From the IMG/VR virus record IMGVR_UViG_3300037807_000878, positions 62,001 through 126,000 of that record: a DNA stretch of 64,000 nt; one strand, given 5' to 3'. Under the pieces are notes generated by a model. The model did no database searches. It had not been told where the DNA came from and saw nothing but the letters and a program-made list of their open reading frames with translations. The position numbers and the translations under genes were made by a program. Position 1 is the stretch's first letter. Each line of letters starts with the position of its first letter. This DNA comes from a virus. Below are positions 93-8,233 of this stretch, in pieces.

Positions 93-2051
93 ATGAATAG
101 CAAAGAACTAGCTGAAACTTTTAGATACACAGACTTCGCTAGTGGTAGCGTTGTCTATCGCAATAACGTCGTCGATTATATGGATATTTATAAGCAAGCT
201 TTAACCAGTTCGTTAGGTAAAGATGTATATTGTGGGCTATTTCAATTTGATATTACCTTCAAAACGCATGTAGAGGAACGCGGATCTGTTTCAGGTTTTA
301 AGGGAGAGCACTTTTCATATTTCTTTCCTCTTGATATAGATGCATCGCACGGTGATGTTGATGAAGCCAGAACTAAGACGATTCAATTCTTGCACTATCT
401 AGAATCTAAAAACGTAAAGAATGAAGATGTATACATCTACTTTTCAGGCGCTAAAGGATTTCATATCTTAATACCCCATGCTCTTTTCGGTTATACGCCT
501 TCAACTAAGCTTAACGTTATGTTTAAGCAGATAGCGCAAATAATGGCCAAAGATAGCGGAGTTGGGCTCGCCTCTGAGAAAGAAGCAGGTATAGATTTAA
601 TCTATGACAAAACACGCTTACTTAGGCTACCCAATACACAACATAGTAAGACTAACTTCTTTAAGACCCAACTAACTGGACAAGAGTTAAAGTCTTTATC
701 TATGGAGCAAATATATGAAAAAGCTTCCGAAGCTAGGATGTATTTACATAAACCTGCTGTAACCACCACTAATAGTGGGCTAAGGGATCTCTTCATGAAA
801 TCTCAATTAACTGAAGCAAAAGCACGTGCTATTATTCCAGCGCAAGCTTTAAGAGATAGTAACCACCAAATTAAAAATGGTAAGGTGTGTATAGCTCGGT
901 TACTTGATGGAGTGGGGCAAGGGCAGCGAGATGAGGTTGCTATTAGACTTGCTGACCATTTCCGTAAACAAGGTATGTCCCAAGAGCTTACAACAGCTAC
1001 GCTTCTTGCATGGAACCAGAAAAATGATCCACCTATGGCTATGCAAGAAATTGAAACCAAGGTAACTAGCGCTTGGATGAATGATGTGGATTATGGGTGT
1101 CATGATCATATTCTAGCTTCCCATTGCAGCAATACATGTTTCTTGTATAGCAAGTTAATCAAAAACCAAAACGAAGAAGAGCTATCAGCTTTAGAATGCA
1201 ACCTTAAAACTAGAGAAGATCTTGTGCGTGCTTACGTAGATAGATTCTTTGAAGGAAAAGGAATTTCTTTAGGTATCCCCACTTTAGACGCTAACTTAAA
1301 GTTACACGGCGGACATGTACTTCAATATATGGCTAAGAGCGGTAGCGGTAAAACATCCTTTGCTATGCATGTTATGAATAACATGAGTAAACAAAATATA
1401 CCTACCCTGTTCCTGTCACTTGAGATGTCCGATGCGGATGTAGCTGAACGTGGCTTTCAAATGGCCTCCAATACAACTTCTGCGGTCTTAGAACGCATGA
1501 TGGTGCAATTCCTAAATGAAGGTATTAGCCGTGAGGAGATGACAGACACCATTATATCTAAAATGGGTAATGCTTTCAGTTCTGTGATCACTGCTGACGA
1601 AGATAGCGCATCTATTGACTCTATCGAGCAATACATCTACAAAGCTAAGGAGGCTTTTGGTATCAAGGTTGTGTTTGTCGATTATTTAGGACGAGTCTCA
1701 CAAACCAAGGCTACTAGTTATGAACATATTAGTGAGCTCGCTAAAGGTTTAAAATCTATGGCTAAAAGACACGATATAGTTATCTTCTACTTACATCAGG
1801 TTAACCGTTCAATTGAGGATGCAAGCGCCGCTGTAGATATGAGTGCAGGTAGGGATTCCGGGCAGACGGAAGAAGCCGCTGATGTGGTGCTAGGAAGCTG
1901 GCGTCCAGGCGCTGCAGAAGGAATGAAAGAATTCGTAGTAAGGATATTGAAAAACAGACGCGGCGCTAGTAACATAGACGCCTACTTAGAATTCGAACCC
2001 GAAACAATGCAATTCCGAGAATTAACTGATGGATATGAATCAAGACTTTAA
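93..2051 (+). CDS. AEP-type DNA primase fused to DnaB/RecA-fold replicative helicase
   Basis: This is a bifunctional replisome protein that should make primers and unwind the fork. The N-terminal archaeo-eukaryotic primase domain shows the LDIDA metal site (Asp81, Asp83), the SGAKGFH motif (Ser118, His124) and GIDLIYD (Asp168, Asp172). A middle stretch around residues 255-330 resembles a PriCT helical domain. A Cys/His cluster follows near 335-350 and could bind zinc or an iron-sulphur centre. The C-terminal half is a RecA-fold ATPase with Walker A KSGSGKTS (about 415-422), a SLEMS motif typical of DnaB helicases and a hydrophobic strand ending FVDYLG. It is the first gene of the operon, and its end overlaps the next gene by 23 bases. 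AEP-helicase fusions are known in phages and plasmids. Assignment is firm; the function of the middle region is inferred. Confidence 0.9.
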   Translation: MNSKELAETFRYTDFASGSVVYRNNVVDYMDIYKQALTSSLGKDVYCGLFQFDITFKTHVEERGSVSGFKGEHFSYFFPLDIDASHGDVDEARTKTIQFLHYLESKNVKNEDVYIYFSGAKGFHILIPHALFGYTPSTKLNVMFKQIAQIMAKDSGVGLASEKEAGIDLIYDKTRLLRLPNTQHSKTNFFKTQLTGQELKSLSMEQIYEKASEARMYLHKPAVTTTNSGLRDLFMKSQLTEAKARAIIPAQALRDSNHQIKNGKVCIARLLDGVGQGQRDEVAIRLADHFRKQGMSQELTTATLLAWNQKNDPPMAMQEIETKVTSAWMNDVDYGCHDHILASHCSNTCFLYSKLIKNQNEEELSALECNLKTREDLVRAYVDRFFEGKGISLGIPTLDANLKLHGGHVLQYMAKSGSGKTSFAMHVMNNMSKQNIPTLFLSLEMSDADVAERGFQMASNTTSAVLERMMVQFLNEGISREEMTDTIISKMGNAFSSVITADEDSASIDSIEQYIYKAKEAFGIKVVFVDYLGRVSQTKATSYEHISELAKGLKSMAKRHDIVIFYLHQVNRSIEDASAAVDMSAGRDSGQTEEAADVVLGSWRPGAAEGMKEFVVRILKNRRGASNIDAYLEFEPETMQFRELTDGYESRL

Positions 2052-2793
2052 ACTAGAACGCCTTAAAATAGGCATTGATATAGCGCGCTACATTAAGGGG
2101 AGGGGACCTAACATCGCCTCCCTTGTTAGCTATGCTAAAACTAATAAAATGATATTGAGCCCACGTGCTTATGCATTCGAAAGTTATTATGTTATTACGG
2201 ATGATAGTAATATCGTATCTGCCGCTAAAAAAATGGGACACTCTCATTTACAGATACTGGTAATAGGAGGTAAAAAAGAAGCCCTTAATGACGTGAAACG
2301 TATCTTTAGAGACTACGTTAATGAGTCTAACTTTGGGGCTAAGGAGATGACTAAGACCGTTAAATACCTTGAAAATATTTGGAAGCGGTTATTTGTAGGA
2401 ACAAGCGTAGAAGATACTTTCTACGACACTTTCTCTGATGCTATCAACATACCTAAAGAAGTAATAATACGTGCTATTAAAACAAGAGAACCAACAGGTA
2501 TAACAAAGGAAGACCTATCTAGAAAAATTAAGCACATAAGAGAAGGTAGGTCCTATGTAGAACGAATTGATAAACTAGCAGAAACCTTTTGCCCACATTG
2601 CGGCAGTGTTGAAAAACTAAACTTAACAGGTGTTGATAGTACGATCATTCCGCATTACATACAGGCTGCGGTTATAACTAAGATTAACCATCTATTAAAA
2701 AACGTACCCTTTTCCGCAAGGGAGAGCACACTTAGATTAATTAAAGACGGGGTACAACGTCTAATCTCAAAATCAATCAAAAAAACTTACTAG
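2029..2793 (+). CDS. Unknown replication-operon protein with one CxxC knuckle
   Basis: 254 residues, not recognised. It sits between the primase-helicase and the SSB and starts inside the 3' end of the primase gene, so it is probably translationally coupled and made with the replisome. It is basic and mainly helical in appearance. A single CPHC pair lies near residue 189, too little for a full zinc ribbon unless partner residues are distant. A second possible start lies two codons downstream (2035). A replication accessory role (helicase loader or clamp-loader-like) is suggested only by position. Confidence 0.7.
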   Translation: MDMNQDFKLERLKIGIDIARYIKGRGPNIASLVSYAKTNKMILSPRAYAFESYYVITDDSNIVSAAKKMGHSHLQILVIGGKKEALNDVKRIFRDYVNESNFGAKEMTKTVKYLENIWKRLFVGTSVEDTFYDTFSDAINIPKEVIIRAIKTREPTGITKEDLSRKIKHIREGRSYVERIDKLAETFCPHCGSVEKLNLTGVDSTIIPHYIQAAVITKINHLLKNVPFSARESTLRLIKDGVQRLISKSIKKTY

Positions 2794-2795
2794 AA

Positions 2796-3197
2796 ATGAA
2801 AATCCCAAGCTCAGAATTACAAAATAGTGGTGGTAATAATCACCCACAAGGAGATTTCTCCGCAAGCGTCAAAGCCTGTACAGGTGAGATGAACTCAGAA
2901 GGTATCTACGAAATTAAAGTTACATTTAGTACTACAATAGGTACTGTAACCCAGTTCTGGAATACTGATAAAACAGGCTGGAAAATCCGTATCTTCGGCG
3001 ATGCGCTCGGCCTCGTTGGAGACTTTGATACAGATGATGCTATTGGCAAAAAGCTGGATCTGAAAGTAACGAAAAAAGTCAATACCAATAATGGTAAAAC
3101 TTACACTAATGTGGAAACGCACGCTGCGGGAAGTTTGGTGCTAGAGACCAACGACGAGCCTCCTATGGCTACGGCAGCGAATGATGTACCTTTCTAA
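2796..3197 (+). CDS. ssb: Single-stranded DNA-binding protein (OB-fold), phage SSB
   Basis: 133 residues with a beta-rich body and an acidic, flexible C-terminus that ends NDVPF. This closely matches the DDIPF tip with which bacterial SSBs recruit partner proteins. The body alternates strands with aromatic residues (QFWNTDKTGW, about 49-58), as expected for an OB fold. Its stop overlaps the nuclease start (TAATG). A position between primase and nuclease supports a role in coating ssDNA at the fork. The call rests on the tail motif, size and neighbourhood rather than on strong core similarity. Confidence 0.7.
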   Translation: MKIPSSELQNSGGNNHPQGDFSASVKACTGEMNSEGIYEIKVTFSTTIGTVTQFWNTDKTGWKIRIFGDALGLVGDFDTDDAIGKKLDLKVTKKVNTNNGKTYTNVETHAAGSLVLETNDEPPMATAANDVPF

Positions 3198-4057
3198 TGA
3201 AATTTAACGATCAGTCCGCTAATAACGAGACGCCCTTTTCTTCGGAGAAGGGCGTTTCTTTTCCTATAGAGCATCTCTCTTATTCCTCTATTGGCTTATT
3301 AGAAAGGTGTCCCAAAGCTTTTTACTATCGCTATATTAAAGGCATTAAGTCTTCACCCAACTGGAAGATGATTACAGGTTCAGCTTTTGATGAAACGCTT
3401 AACTTCCATTATGACCAGAAAAAAGCAACTGGAAAAGATGAACCTTTAGATGTATTACAAGATCATGTAAAGGAAGAGTTCGAACATCGCAAGGATGAGG
3501 CCTCTTGGATTCCTGGGCAAGACATTAAAGCGCAACAAGGAAAGGTCTTAACTGCCTGCACTAAAGGCTTAAAAATATTCAGAGATAAAATATTAACTAA
3601 AGTCGAACCAGAAGGAACCCAGATTGAAATATATCATGAGTTTACACCTGGGCTTAAGTTTAAAGGTTACATTGACCTACTGGAAAATAAAGACGGCAGT
3701 CAAGTTATTGTAGATAATAAAACTACATGGAGGCGTTGGAGTGGTACAGAGAAACTTTGGCAACTTGTAGTTTATTCTTACATGATGAGTCTGCAAGGAC
3801 AAGAAATCCGAGAAACACGATATGATGTATGTCTCTTGAAAAAAAGAGATGACCCAGAGATAGCTCAGTTTACTGATTTCATCACTGATGATCAGCATAA
3901 ATTCATGGCTCGTAAATTAGACTGGGCTGTTAAATACTTAACAATGGCCATAAAAGACCCTTCACTGTTTAACCATAACTTTAACACATGGCAATGTGGT
4001 AATAGTTGTCAATACGTTACTCAGTGTGAACTAGAATTAGGAATGAAATTAAAATGA
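3197..4057 (+). CDS. RecB/Cas4-family PD-(D/E)xK nuclease with Fe-S-type cysteines
   Basis: 286 residues. It shows the RecB-nuclease order: LSYSSIGLLERCPKAFYYRY near the N-terminus, a GSAFDETLN helix, GYIDLLENKDG (catalytic Asp), a VDNKTT strand (the xK part of the motif) and LWQLVVYSYM (motif IV, QxxxY-like). One Cys in LLERCPK plus three in WQCGNSCQYVTQCE give the 1+3 cysteine layout of Cas4/AddB-type 4Fe-4S nucleases. It likely resects or trims DNA ends in replication-recombination. A terminator-like hairpin overlaps codons 12-22 (3230-3262), so its expression may be attenuated relative to SSB. The next gene starts in an ATGATGA overlap. Confidence 0.85.
   Translation: MKFNDQSANNETPFSSEKGVSFPIEHLSYSSIGLLERCPKAFYYRYIKGIKSSPNWKMITGSAFDETLNFHYDQKKATGKDEPLDVLQDHVKEEFEHRKDEASWIPGQDIKAQQGKVLTACTKGLKIFRDKILTKVEPEGTQIEIYHEFTPGLKFKGYIDLLENKDGSQVIVDNKTTWRRWSGTEKLWQLVVYSYMMSLQGQEIRETRYDVCLLKKRDDPEIAQFTDFITDDQHKFMARKLDWAVKYLTMAIKDPSLFNHNFNTWQCGNSCQYVTQCELELGMKLK
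3230..3262 (+). terminator. Terminator-like hairpin inside the nuclease 5' end (attenuator candidate)
   Basis: An 11-base stem (one G.U pair), ACGCCCTTTTC / GAGAAGGGCGT, with a TTCG tetraloop is followed by a T-rich tract. It sits within the first 25 codons of the nuclease gene. The conserved nuclease N-terminal motif starts just downstream, so the gene cannot simply begin after it. Confidence 0.6.
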
Positions 4058-5739
4058 TGAGAAAAAAACCTTCCAGTGAGCTCCTCGATAAAAGCAGGCT
4101 CTTTATAGATAAGCACAACGTAGACTTAAATGCTCTTACTACCTTACTCTCTAGAGCTGCAGGTATTGAGTTTATGTCTAGAGCAGGACAACTTACCACT
4201 AAGCGCATAAGCCTTGCTAGGAATATTGACACACCTGTGTCAGTTAGCTTAGAGAATAAAGACAGACCTTTTTATTTGAGCCACATAAATAAAACAGAGC
4301 TGATAGAAGGCGACTCCTTCCATTTTTCTCATTCAGCTTTTACAGCATGGTGTCAGCAAGCGTCAATAAACTCTCTACAGGGACATAATTACTTAATAAT
4401 AAATCCTTACTCATACTATATACGAAGAAATTGTAGCTTACTTCGTATTATATATAAGATAAGTCCAAGCGGCGCCTCCTTTCGATTTCAGCCCTCCTTC
4501 CAGTTTGGAGCGCGTGAGGGACATGCATTTAATATTCTAGACTTCTTGCATCGAGTGGGGGATAAATTCTATTTCAAGATAGAAGAAGACGAAATTGCGA
4601 GTCTAGAAGATGTACCGTTAGAGAAACATCTTCAAGATGCGTGTAGGAAAGGAGGCGATTTCTCTGCTAAAATAGAAGACATAATGGAAAACGTCTCTAC
4701 TATGCAGCCAGCGCCTACTCACTATACTCTCCCTCATATGCTTAAGCTTCTTTCTGATAACTCCTCTTCTCTGATGGAGAGGTTACTTGAGCGCTTAAGT
4801 ACTCGCGCTAAGGTAGAGAGACTTAATACCCTACAATATCCTTTAGAGGATATTATAATCAGACGTAACCAAATAGGGGTTATTAATACTCCCACTACTT
4901 CTAAGCACTGTCTCTATTCACCGGTCACTATTACTGCTCCTACTCTAGCATGTGGGTTTAATGGGCCTAAGCAAGAATTACTTGATTTTATTAACACAGT
5001 AAAAACTGGAAATATGTCAATTACATTACTTTTCAGTATGCCGGATATACATATTTACTCTAACAATACGGTGACATATGATAATGGTATTCTTGTAGGA
5101 GATTTTCTCTTGCATGTCCGCTTGCAGGCGAGCGACGCAGAAGACTTACAAATCTCTTTACGCTTGTCCCCACAGCCTTCCCATAAGGATAGTGTAATTG
5201 CTGCTTATCTTGAAAAAGGCAGTGTAACCATAAATAGCTTTGACTCCGAGATGTATTTGCATCCGCATGTAGCAACCACCGGGATACTCTGTTTAGGTGA
5301 GTATGAAGCTTTAATTAAGAAAGAAATTTTAAGGGGCAACTTCCACTCTGTGCCTGCTTTGGTAGGTATGTTACTAGAGAATATAAACCCTTTTTCTGTC
5401 TTTATAAATATTGCAAATCTTTTACTCTTCAGTACAAACATTAGCGAGAAGAATTTTATAGCATATATAAGTGGAAATACAAAAATAGGCCTTTCCAATA
5501 AAGCGTTTTTGGAGTGTCTATTGGAAAGAGGAAGCAATCTTGATATGGAGAAAATACATAAGGACTTACTAGTAAGTGGCGAGGAAAAAATAGCTATAGA
5601 CTTAGCTAAAACTTGCGCCGATCTAGGGTATAAGATAGTAGAACCAGAAGAGGTTGAAGATGAAAAAGAAATTCTCCCTGAAACTAGAACTCTGGTAGAT
5701 CTACTAGTAACCACCCCGATTCTAGGGGAAAACCCATAA
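4054..5739 (+). CDS. E2-like (UBC-fold) ubiquitin-conjugating protein with a large N-terminal region
   Basis: 561 residues. Around residues 400-416 it carries YLHPHVATTGILCLGE. This matches the E2 active-site signature (HPN[VI]..G.[IL]CL), with Cys413 as the predicted catalytic cysteine that would carry the Ubl as a thioester. The preceding strands (ISLRLSPQP, about 369-377) fit the UBC meander, and the following helix-plus-NP segment (to about 455) fits the UBC C-terminal helices. The first ~320 residues match no domain known to me and could be a target- or E1-binding module. The last ~40 residues are acidic. The gene is four bases upstream of the Ubl gene and shares an operon with JAB and E1 genes, which strongly supports the E2 call. 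Prokaryotic E2s in such operons are established; this long form is not one I recognise. Confidence 0.72.
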   Translation: MMRKKPSSELLDKSRLFIDKHNVDLNALTTLLSRAAGIEFMSRAGQLTTKRISLARNIDTPVSVSLENKDRPFYLSHINKTELIEGDSFHFSHSAFTAWCQQASINSLQGHNYLIINPYSYYIRRNCSLLRIIYKISPSGASFRFQPSFQFGAREGHAFNILDFLHRVGDKFYFKIEEDEIASLEDVPLEKHLQDACRKGGDFSAKIEDIMENVSTMQPAPTHYTLPHMLKLLSDNSSSLMERLLERLSTRAKVERLNTLQYPLEDIIIRRNQIGVINTPTTSKHCLYSPVTITAPTLACGFNGPKQELLDFINTVKTGNMSITLLFSMPDIHIYSNNTVTYDNGILVGDFLLHVRLQASDAEDLQISLRLSPQPSHKDSVIAAYLEKGSVTINSFDSEMYLHPHVATTGILCLGEYEALIKKEILRGNFHSVPALVGMLLENINPFSVFINIANLLLFSTNISEKNFIAYISGNTKIGLSNKAFLECLLERGSNLDMEKIHKDLLVSGEEKIAIDLAKTCADLGYKIVEPEEVEDEKEILPETRTLVDLLVTTPILGENP

Positions 5740-5743
5740 AAAA

Positions 5744-5953
5744 ATGACTGACCCAATTTTCGTAGTTGAAATGGGAGAGGGCACTGATACTGTCCCCTTT
5801 CAAGAGCAATTAACTCTAGGTGCTTTAATTAGCACTCGGAATGTAAGTAAGAGCGTTACCGTAAAGGTAAACAATAGTCGTGTAGATAACGACTATGTGA
5901 TGCAGCCTGGGGATCAGGTTCAGCTTATTCCTAACGTAGAAGCTGGCCTATAA
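5744..5953 (+). CDS. Ubiquitin-like beta-grasp protein (ThiS/MoaD type) with C-terminal Ala-Gly-Leu
   Basis: 69 residues with the ThiS/MoaD pattern: an N-terminal hairpin, a short helix (LGALIS), then VTVKVNNSRVDNDYVMQPGD (about 39-58) and a final strand (VQLIPNV, about 60-66) leading into a C-terminal tail ending EAGL. ThiS, MoaD and ubiquitin work through a C-terminal glycine that E1 adenylates. Here Gly68 is followed by one Leu, so trimming of one residue, plausibly by the JAB peptidase encoded next, would expose it. It is the predicted modifier of the cassette. A strong terminator follows at once, before the JAB gene. Confidence 0.75.
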   Translation: MTDPIFVVEMGEGTDTVPFQEQLTLGALISTRNVSKSVTVKVNNSRVDNDYVMQPGDQVQLIPNVEAGL

Positions 5954-5965
5954 TCCATTTAATGT

Positions 5966-6002
5966 AAGAGAGAGATATTAATATATCTCTCTCTTTCTTT
6001 TT
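5966..6002 (+). terminator. Intrinsic terminator between the Ubl and JAB genes
   Basis: A perfect 13-base stem (5966-5978 with 5983-5995), a TAAT loop and a TCTTTTT tail. Placed mid-operon, it would give more E2/Ubl transcript than JAB/E1 transcript. Confidence 0.8.
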
Positions 6003-6013
6003 ACAGGAACAAA

Positions 6014-7099
6014 ATGACAAAAGAACTAACAAAAGAAGCGGAGAAAGAGACCTCAATGAGGTTCTCTGGAAAAGGAGCTGAACTCTCCATTGTATTAAGT
6101 GCATATGTATACCAACGCATGCGGTTCCTTGTTGATAACGTAGACGCTGAGGTGGCGTGGTTTGGCACAGTAGAGAAGACAGGTAATGTCTTCAATATCA
6201 CGGAAATATACGTTCCGGAGCAAGAAGTGACCGCCTCATCAGTCGAGGCTGATGCAGAAATGGTTTCTAATTTATTGCCAGAGCTTATTGAAAAGCATGG
6301 GAAGGAAGAAGCCTTAATGGATATCATGCCTAAGATGAGGGCTTTCTGCCACTCACACCATACTATGAAAACCTTCTGGTCTTCCACGGATGAGGGTGGT
6401 ATTAATGGATTAGCTAATAGTCATTACTTAGTGAGTTTAGTGCTTAATCGAGGAAATGATATTTTAGGTAGGGTAGATTTCTTTAAGCCCTATAGGATGA
6501 CAATTGATAATGTTGTAGTTAAGATAGACTACAAAGCGTCTTTCGAGGACCTTCAAAAAGATGTTGATGAGAAAGTGCAAACAAAGAAGGTTTCATATCA
6601 AAAAACTGGGACTCCCTATTTTGGAGGGGTAGGTTCTTCTTATTATGGAGGCCAAGGTTCTTATTATGGAAGCACGTCTACTAAGGGAGCAATAGGCACT
6701 GTAAAGGCTTATGGACTGCCCAACCTTGTAATAAAAGCTCATCCAGAATTGAAAGATATGTGTCGGATACTTCTGACAGCGCATAGCAAACCTAAAGCTA
6801 TTAAAGACATAGCATTTCTAATCTTCGCACTAAATTATGAAAATAATGAACTAAAAGATAGGCATAAAGAGCTTATGAACTTGTTTACTGCACTTCTTAA
6901 GGTATCAACTCTTGAAAAACTTAAGCCTACCATTATCTGGGAACTTGTTAGTGTAGTAAAGATGTTCGGCTCTACGGCTGCTGTAAACTCCCATGATCCA
7001 GCAAAGGTGTTGAAAAGTGACACAGCTGTAAACATATTAAACTTAATGAAGAATCGCTACAACCTTAACGCTGGCAGTACATACTGCGTAAAACCATGA
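6014..7099 (+). CDS. JAB/JAMM-domain metallopeptidase (predicted Ubl processing or deconjugating enzyme)
   Basis: 361 residues. The JAMM zinc site is complete: Glu46 in DAEVAWFG, His113 and His115 in CHSHH, Ser123 and Asp126 in SSTD, with exactly seven residues between the HxH and the serine. JAB enzymes cleave after the C-terminal glycine of ubiquitin-like proteins, either maturing precursors or removing conjugates. A Gly/Tyr/Ser-rich linker (about 200-225) separates the JAB domain from a helical C-terminal domain of unknown role. AGGAAC nine bases upstream is a good ribosome site. Its stop overlaps the E1 start (ATGA). With Ubl, E2 and E1 neighbours it is the predicted protease of the pathway. 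Confidence 0.9.
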   Translation: MTKELTKEAEKETSMRFSGKGAELSIVLSAYVYQRMRFLVDNVDAEVAWFGTVEKTGNVFNITEIYVPEQEVTASSVEADAEMVSNLLPELIEKHGKEEALMDIMPKMRAFCHSHHTMKTFWSSTDEGGINGLANSHYLVSLVLNRGNDILGRVDFFKPYRMTIDNVVVKIDYKASFEDLQKDVDEKVQTKKVSYQKTGTPYFGGVGSSYYGGQGSYYGSTSTKGAIGTVKAYGLPNLVIKAHPELKDMCRILLTAHSKPKAIKDIAFLIFALNYENNELKDRHKELMNLFTALLKVSTLEKLKPTIIWELVSVVKMFGSTAAVNSHDPAKVLKSDTAVNILNLMKNRYNLNAGSTYCVKP

Positions 7100-7809
7100 G
7101 AGGAGACTTTAAAAGACAAGCTGCCTTATTCAACCCCTTTCTCTATAAGGACACACCAGTCGTTCTTATAGGGGTAGGAGGGATTGGCTCTGGCGTACTA
7201 ATGGGCCTCGCAAAAATGGGCATTTCAGATATTACAGTGTTTGATCACGACTATGTAGAGCCTCATAATATACCTAACCAATTCTACATGAATACAGATA
7301 TTGGTGAAAGTAAAGTCGAAGCGGCTTATCGCATAGCTAAGCAATTCAGTCCTGAAGGGATTGAGATTAGTATCAATAAAGAGAAAGCCACTCCACAAAC
7401 TATCTTACCTAAGAATAGTCTTGTGATATTCGCTACAGACTCGTTAGCAGCTCGTAAGGAGCTCTTCACGTCCGGTTTCATGGTGAATGCTGGTTACCTC
7501 ATTGATGCGCGTATGGGCGGTAATGTGATCTCTCTGTACAACGTAGATGTCACAAGTGATTTCCGCTTAGCTTCTTACGCAGAGAGTTTAGAGGTAAAAC
7601 CTCATAAAACTTCTTGTGCCGCACAGGCTATTTCGTATACAATATTGCTCACAGCTGGTTTAGTCTGTAGCTCTGTTCGAAATGTCTTGGTAGGTAACGT
7701 GAACCCTTTCAATGTTGTACTAGATGCACAGAACTTTATGCTCCAGGTTGAAACTGGTCAAAGCGCTAATGCATCATATGAACGAGAACGAGATCCCATC
7801 GGGGTTTAA
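7096..7809 (+). CDS. E1-like ThiF/MoeB-family adenylating enzyme
   Basis: 237 residues. The Rossmann ATP-binding motif IGVGGIGSG (about 25-33) is followed by ITVFDHDYVEPHNIPNQ (about 45-61), the hallmark of ThiF/MoeB/E1 adenylation domains. The strand-Asp LVIFATDS follows, then Cys174 in KTSCAAQ, the best candidate for the thioester cysteine. The length is that of a minimal ThiF domain without rhodanese or ubiquitin-fold additions. It would adenylate the Ubl C-terminus and hand it to the E2-like protein. It is coupled to JAB by ATGA. The next gene begins inside it. Confidence 0.9.
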   Translation: MRGDFKRQAALFNPFLYKDTPVVLIGVGGIGSGVLMGLAKMGISDITVFDHDYVEPHNIPNQFYMNTDIGESKVEAAYRIAKQFSPEGIEISINKEKATPQTILPKNSLVIFATDSLAARKELFTSGFMVNAGYLIDARMGGNVISLYNVDVTSDFRLASYAESLEVKPHKTSCAAQAISYTILLTAGLVCSSVRNVLVGNVNPFNVVLDAQNFMLQVETGQSANASYERERDPIGV

Positions 7810-8233
7810 CTTACTAGATCTGGGTATAGAGCCGGACTTAAATATTACACCTAATATATACACGTCATCAATTGAAACGGATGACTTTTTTTGTAATTAT
7901 TGCGACTATGGTGAATTCATGTCTTTGTGTATAAGATTAAAAAGAGCTACCCCAGCTAGAGAACCTCTTTTTGATTTTATCATAGACACTGAAGCATACA
8001 CTAAAAGCTTAATAGAAAAAGATGCAAAAAGCTATTATTTGGATAAATGGTTTCCTGGGCATGTTATATTCGTACTTTCTTTATCCAGTAATACACAACC
8101 TCACCGCTTTGCTAATTTTATTGTCACAGGGTTACAGGTAAGGATGGAGGCAACTATTAATCAAGCAGAGCTTATAGCTATAAATAAAATGAAAAAAGAT
8201 AAAGTCGAACAACTTAAAATTGCTCGACTTTAA
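7778..8233 (+). CDS. Unknown last gene of the ubiquitin-like operon
   Basis: 151 residues from the ATG at 7778, which overlaps the E1 3' end by 32 bases. An upstream in-frame ATG at 7724 is possible but would overlap more. It contains a CNYC pair (about 38-41) and a C-terminal helix rich in Lys. I recognise no domain. Position suggests a cassette component such as an adaptor, substrate or E3-like protein, but that is inference. It ends convergently with the tail gene at 8248. Confidence 0.6.
   Translation: MNENEIPSGFNLLDLGIEPDLNITPNIYTSSIETDDFFCNYCDYGEFMSLCIRLKRATPAREPLFDFIIDTEAYTKSLIEKDAKSYYLDKWFPGHVIFVLSLSSNTQPHRFANFIVTGLQVRMEATINQAELIAINKMKKDKVEQLKIARL

Follow-up and report, generated by a model that had tools for sequence, protein, structure and literature searches.

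Within a 64,000-nucleotide stretch of viral DNA (the window; bases 62001-126000 of IMG/VR virus record IMGVR_UViG_3300037807_000878, 156,428 bases in total), four adjacent genes encode an apparent E2-like protein, a ubiquitin-like (Ubl) modifier, a JAB/JAMM metalloprotease and an E1/ThiF adenylating enzyme (Table 1). Judging from their sequences and those of their relatives, we consider it probable (roughly 0.8) that these genes specify a phage-encoded, reversible and working Ubl conjugation pathway. Roughly a hundred phage lineages, of diverse kinds, carry this set. Prokaryotic Ubl conjugation is known mainly as a means of host defence; here bacterial viruses hold the whole predicted pathway, and its catalytic residues are preserved over great divergence.

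Detection of the four components by family profiles

Curated libraries recognized only ThiF confidently. The Ubl (ThiS, 6.5e-4) and the JAB (Prok-JAB, 0.15) fell below their cut-offs, and the 561-residue E2-like protein had no Pfam, NCBIfam or PHROG match of note. We therefore sought relatives and built our own family profiles. Other sets were first reached through searches of cultured and deposited phages, and alignments of E1 and JAB retrieved at least 182 loci from IMG/VR, with metagenomic contigs taken as viral without a contig-by-contig check. The broad E1 alignment was too divergent for searching; subset alignments succeeded. For E2, a global alignment of four full-length proteins misaligned the motif, and a domain alignment (A8) was used in its place. 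Single-protein scans of viral contigs with E2 or E1 gave no matches, and tblastn found nothing either in cultured phages and plasmids searched with a JAB or in plasmids searched with the window E1.

Profiles of the four families were built from the gathered loci, rebuilt without the window sequence (leave-one-out), and searched against the 365 open reading frames (ORFs) of the window, whose starts were set mechanically throughout. The expected genes were recovered with E values of 1.5e-8 for E2 (next-best ORF, 0.7), 1.1e-11 for Ubl (next-best, 0.087), 2.3e-52 for JAB and 6.3e-53 for E1, which bears out the preliminary description of this DNA, where the same four genes in a row had been proposed from residue-level motifs. 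The profiles also recovered the E2 (2.7e-5), JAB and E1 of Flavobacterium phage FpV4, a genome outside the training set.

Conserved active sites

Conservation was counted with one locus per E1 cluster at 80% identity (129 clusters). The candidate catalytic cysteine of the E2-like protein, Cys413, is kept in 113/113 distinct homologues. The profile seeds were chosen by a motif that includes this residue, and E2s without the motif were therefore tallied separately; all 32 distinct proteins of this kind also keep the Cys. On the same contigs, ORFs adjoining phage ThiF/JAB genes show a 22-fold higher density of the motif than the remaining ORFs do. When the E2 profile (61 sequences) was compared with 177,635 PDB sequences, the top match was UBE2L3 (6.3e-5), and the remaining matches among those listed were overwhelmingly ubiquitin-conjugating enzymes. 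The profile's HPHxxxxxxC pairs with HPNIDEKGQVC of UBE2L3, aligning the catalytic Cys, and the overlap covers the strand region preceding the active site. An alignment at the active-site Cys was also obtained between the profile and a PRTRC_B protein. Many E2 homologues carry a Cys-rich segment after the E2 domain (for example, loci L005, 3193-5871; L012, 4306-6159; and L022, 6228-7973), possibly a zinc-binding or E3-like part; the window protein does not have it.

The E1 is conserved as well: Cys174, by its invariance the putative thioester residue, is found in 124/124 distinct homologues, Asp115 and Arg120 in 127/127 each, and Gly26, Gly28, Asp50, Asn58 and Lys73 likewise do not vary. In the JAB, the intact JAMM site reported in the preliminary description is present (E46/H113/H115/S123/D126), and all five residues are invariant among distinct homologues. 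The JAB scans selected for HSH; among loci retrieved through E1 alone, the JAMM motif occurs in 79/81. Compared with the PDB, the JAB profile matched Rpn11 (5.5e-7; a different alignment gave 1.2e-7), and the HxH, S and D positions coincide.

The Ubl yielded a confident AlphaFold2 (AF2) model (predicted local distance difference test score [pLDDT], 87) with the beta-grasp fold that had been expected of it. Foldseek matched this model to MoaD, Urm1, SAMP1 and ubiquitin, and in the PDB the Ubl profile found SAMP2 first (3.9e-12), followed by MoaD and ThiS. One expectation was mistaken, in that the window Ubl does not terminate in Gly; it ends in ...EAGL, with Gly as the penultimate residue. Among 98 distinct Ubls, 16 have their last Gly as the C-terminal residue, 56 have one residue after it and 15 have two (87/98 within this range). 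A Gly that mostly lies one residue short of the end suits a short trimming step by a protease, and the JAB could be the enzyme that performs it. Some loci have tandem Ubl genes, with two beta-grasp-like copies per protein that each have a GG or GN end (L113, 6263-6676; L048, 5456-5872; L159, 9866-10312).

Distribution among phages and cellular genomes

The same genes occur in other phages on a large scale. Across 92 divergent clusters (E1s <80% identical) with enough flanking sequence, JAB was found in 89, E2 in 81, Ubl in 72 and all four in 68; the corresponding counts for the 60 adequately flanked loci reached through E1 alone were 59, 55, 49 and 46. The commonest gene order is Ubl-E2-JAB-E1 (39 clusters), and the E2-Ubl-JAB-E1 order of the window was seen once. 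In the E1 tree, the window sequence forms a long, deep branch (1.51) of unsure placement.

Cultured phages are among the carriers, providing experimentally accessible systems for learning what viral tagging does. Bacteroides phage crAss001, from the human gut (gp78-76), and FpV4 encode E2-JAB-E1 together with a probable Ubl, and some forty further crAss-type records carry the set. Existing annotations of these genes in the two phages read "hypothetical", "metalloprotease" or "thiamine biosynthesis"; from gp79 to gp75 of crAss001 they are hypothetical, hypothetical, metalloprotease, ThiF and hypothetical. A testable function can thus be offered for conserved uncharacterized genes of gut crAss-like phages (crAss001 gp76-gp79). 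In Xanthomonas phage PhiXhv-12, an 892-residue protein with HPHM....GSLCLG is encoded ahead of ThiF. The literature we searched, covering the field in part, contained no description of phage-borne sets, and one may exist elsewhere; the crAss phage papers searched did not mention ThiF, JAB or ubiquitin.

The gene ahead of E2 in the crAss-type phages and FpV4 (gp79 type) encodes an invariant K-x3-SG near residue 89 (Lys84, Ser88, Gly89) followed by a C-terminal extension, and is probably a Ubl precursor; its similarity to the Ubl profile was not significant. In one crAss-type locus (L010, cr106_1; 6687-7890), an HNH endonuclease gene splits the Ubl-like gene right after KSG, leaving a short protein that ends in ...KKIKSGKF, as though it could do without the extension. 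The gut phage MT835544 (L002, 6783-8120) has Ubl-JAB-E1 followed by a 445-residue ORF that, by eye, resembles a reverse transcriptase.

In 84,980 genomes of bacteria and archaea, a short-pattern scan, which was not exhaustive, returned 10 loci, all in metagenome-assembled genomes (MAGs), and no cultured isolate with the set. Four of these loci, in Methylomirabilota MAGs (L195, L196, L198 and L199), have a JAB, and in two cases also an E2, amid ordinary-looking chromosomal genes, with neither E1 nor Ubl found nearby; they possibly represent a domesticated or partial set. Another (L202, 1719-4887) has a full Ubl-E2-JAB-E1 on a contig of 8 kb assigned to a Lokiarchaeota MAG; the contig could be viral or misbinned. 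Viruses are a reservoir of divergent forms and so are relevant to the early evolution of E1-E2-Ubl-JAB pathways.

Genomic context

In the window, the four genes belong to a single tightly packed plus-strand run (93-8233) that reads primase-helicase, 254-residue ORF, single-stranded DNA-binding (SSB)-like protein, PD-(D/E)XK nuclease, E2-like protein, Ubl, JAB, ThiF and a 169-residue ORF (Table 1). The association with primase, SSB and nuclease genes noted in the preliminary description holds for the primase-helicase and the nuclease, while the SSB call is weak (3.1e-5). Genes recurring near other cassettes include a primase-helicase like that of the window (26 loci), an AAA ATPase (22), a family of about 200 residues without a Pfam match (20), and a PD-(D/E)XK exonuclease, uracil-DNA glycosylase, primase, dUTPase and resolvase-like nuclease. 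These replication-module neighbours are nearly always on the same strand as the cassette, and this placement points to its expression together with replication genes.

Table 1. Features of the gene run and their supporting evidence (window coordinates)
Feature	Position	Strand	Evidence
Primase-DnaB helicase	93..2051	+	DnaB_C 3.7e-32; homologue near 26 distinct cassettes
254-residue ORF	2029..2793	+	No family reaching cut-off in curated library scans
SSB-like protein, 133 residues	2796..3197	+	PHROG 378, 3.1e-5 (weak call)
PD-(D/E)XK (Cas4/exonuclease-like) nuclease, 286 residues	3197..4057	+	PF12705 5.3e-23
E2-like (UBC) protein, 561 residues; E2 domain about residues 315-470	4054..5739	+	Leave-one-out profile 1.5e-8
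E2 active-site motif HPHVATTGILCLG, residues 403-415; putative catalytic Cys413 at 5290-5292	5260..5298	+	Conservation; UBE2L3 alignment
Ubl modifier, 69 residues, beta-grasp, C-terminus ...NVEAGL	5744..5953	+	Leave-one-out profile 1.1e-11
Terminator-like hairpin between Ubl and JAB, 13 bp then T-rich	5966..5995	+	Pattern scan
JAB/JAMM metalloprotease (deubiquitinase-like), 361 residues	6014..7099	+	Leave-one-out profile 2.3e-52
JAMM motif HSHHTMKTFWSSTD	6350..6391	+	Sequence; H113, H115, S123, D126 in 125/125
E1/ThiF adenylating enzyme, 237 residues; GVGGIGS loop, Asp115, Arg120, candidate thioester Cys174 (7615-7617)	7096..7809	+	PF00899 2.2e-22
Last ORF of operon, 169 residues	7724..8233	+	No family match; no homologue among other cassettes
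Hairpin at end of run, 15 pairs	8200..8232	.	Scored as minus-strand terminator (pattern scan)

Two hairpins within the run may affect its expression. The one between Ubl and JAB is a possible attenuator that would raise Ubl over JAB and E1. A second, a strong 14-bp hairpin followed by a T-rich stretch (3227-3258), lies inside the predicted beginning of the PD-(D/E)XK gene, which may really start downstream; alternatively, the hairpin may cause attenuation of transcription beyond the SSB-like gene. The last ORF, whose true start is probably later than 7724, contains a C-x2-C segment, FCNYCDYGEFMSLC. Elsewhere the window carries a terminase, a major head protein and tRNA genes. The phage had been described as lytic, for which the sole support is that no integrase match was found across the whole 156-kb record, itself possibly incomplete.

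Proposed function and alternatives

In the families to which these proteins are related, E1 enzymes adenylate the modifier and then hold it as a thioester, E2 enzymes receive it by transthiolation, and JAMM proteases act as isopeptidases. By analogy, the phage JAB would trim the single residue beyond the Ubl Gly; the E1 would adenylate this Gly using ATP and accept the Ubl on Cys174; and the E2-like protein would take over the Ubl on Cys413 and attach it to target proteins, perhaps with its long extra region helping in target choice. The JAB may then remove the Ubl again, as Rpn11-type enzymes do. Since the cassette shares one run with genes for a primase-helicase, an SSB-like protein and a nuclease, its most likely setting is the replication and recombination of viral DNA, a proposal to which we give somewhat less than even odds. 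Candidate targets in that setting are replication proteins of the phage or host proteins encountered during the process; host targets might also include defence proteins. More tentatively still, Ubl conjugation might be a core element of DNA replication that is common to many tailed phages, those of crAss type among them, with reversible tagging regulating replication or recombination proteins, a counterpart in viruses of prokaryotes to PCNA/SUMO-type control.

Several points weigh against a working conjugation pathway. We identified neither an E3 nor a tag-reading protease machine, the Ubl and E1 by themselves would also fit a sulfur carrier, and the location in replication modules tells the probable time of expression, not the modification target. 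Moreover, the AF2 model of the E2 domain has a low mean pLDDT of 65 (83-90 at the active site and the helices after it), and its Foldseek scores are weak, the best PDB matches being Ubc9 (E = 0.12) and UbcH7 (E = 0.28), with none below 0.1. The model does place a four-strand meander ahead of the active site, and the fold evidence as a whole is consistent with UBC, not conclusive. Of the UBC fold previously proposed for 4054-5739, then, the sequence profile is clear and the predicted structure is of low confidence; the putative E2 assignment comes from the profiles, with the model weakly supportive.

The preliminary description suggested that the phage either tags a protein or jams a host defence. 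Tagging is the preferred reading, since no catalytic residue varies even among phages that have diverged widely; jamming is weakened, because a decoy needs no invariant E1 Cys, E2 Cys or JAMM site. The invariance of E1 Cys174, E2 Cys413 and the five JAMM residues thus favours an active, reversible pathway over a decoy or relic. A broader form of counter-defence, in which the pathway (or JAB and Ubl) tags, strips or occupies host antiviral proteins of, for example, the Bil or CBASS type, is unlikely but has points in its favour. Bacterial Ubl conjugation serves defence in CBASS (PMC10097602) and likewise in Bil, as cited in PMC12135933; phages carry the set, cellular genomes and plasmids scarcely ever; and all sequence data are compatible with conjugation to a host target. 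Against this, the cassettes lie in same-strand replication modules, not among accessory genes, all four of their parts are maintained in intact form, a requirement that neither a decoy nor a deconjugase on its own would impose, and the E2, Ubl and JAB have no PADLOC match.

It is very improbable that the Ubl and E1 form a thiocarboxylate serving as the sulfur donor for a modified nucleotide, tRNA or cofactor, in which case the JAB would process the Ubl and the E2-like protein would be a scaffold or acceptor. The nearness of the Ubl to MoaD, ThiS, SAMP2 and TtuB, some of them sulfur carriers, the ThiF/MoeB-like E1 and the tRNA genes of the window are in keeping with this idea, but an E2-like protein with an invariant Cys, usually in HPH..C.G, accompanies the set in 81/92 loci, and no sulfurtransferase was recognized among the recurrent neighbours examined. 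Slighter still is the chance that 4054-5739 encodes an unrelated phage protein with an E2-resembling Cys motif and that the true set is Ubl-JAB-E1 only, which the missing curated match and poor structural scores would allow, but which sits badly with top PDB matches that are E2 enzymes aligned at the catalytic Cys, the 113/113 conservation of that residue and the alignment with PRTRC_B at the active site.

Relation to known systems

The cassette shares an E2-like protein and a ThiF with the PRTRC plasmid cassette (PRTRC_B and PRTRC ThiF). Identity with PRTRC was rejected: the phage E1s score 37-50 bits (window, 49.3) against a cut-off of 144.75, and the window E2 is unmatched. As a positive control, a genuine PRTRC locus among the hits (L036) scores 182.6 bits.

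Bil and CBASS Cap2/Cap3 follow a similar logic of E1, E2, Ubl or tail, and JAB. Unlike these systems, the phage set lies in replication modules, and its fold-level similarity to them is limited to E1. None of the PADLOC models matches the E2, Ubl or JAB of the window, and BilD is not among the best 25 matches of the window E1, so that the set is not a Bil system; the sole BilD similarity is a weak one of the crAss001 E1 (2.5e-5). CBASS Cap2/Cap3 and 6A-MBL, in which E1 and E2 are fused and a CD-NTase or MBL gene is present, were also rejected, since E1 and E2 are separate genes here. No CD-NTase or MBL family was found among the gene-run proteins scanned with curated libraries.

The phage profiles match SAMP2/Urm1/MoaD, Rpn11/JAMM and the eukaryotic E2 UBE2L3 in the PDB; these are cellular proteins and do not form one viral cassette. 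A Ubl and a JAB also occur together in phage lambda, as tail proteins I and K (PMC1779556), but those are tail-assembly genes without E1 or E2.

The nearest described kind is class 6d of the bacterial Ub-like/JAB/E1/E2 operons (Iyer, Burroughs and Aravind 2006; PMC1779556). In class 6d, the E2s lack the classical upstream His, the JABs include a JAB-N domain in which Arg/Trp are conserved, and the operons contain an alpha-helical gene (PMC1779556). Both kinds have clustered, separate genes for a small Ubl with a C-terminal Gly, a JAB, an E1 and an E2-like protein, and both are sporadic in their spread. In contrast to class 6d, the phage E2s mostly have HPH, whose His is present in the window E2, and class 6d was listed from bacteria, not from phage replication modules. 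The set described here is of the prokaryotic Ubl-conjugation kind, lodged in the replication modules of phages.

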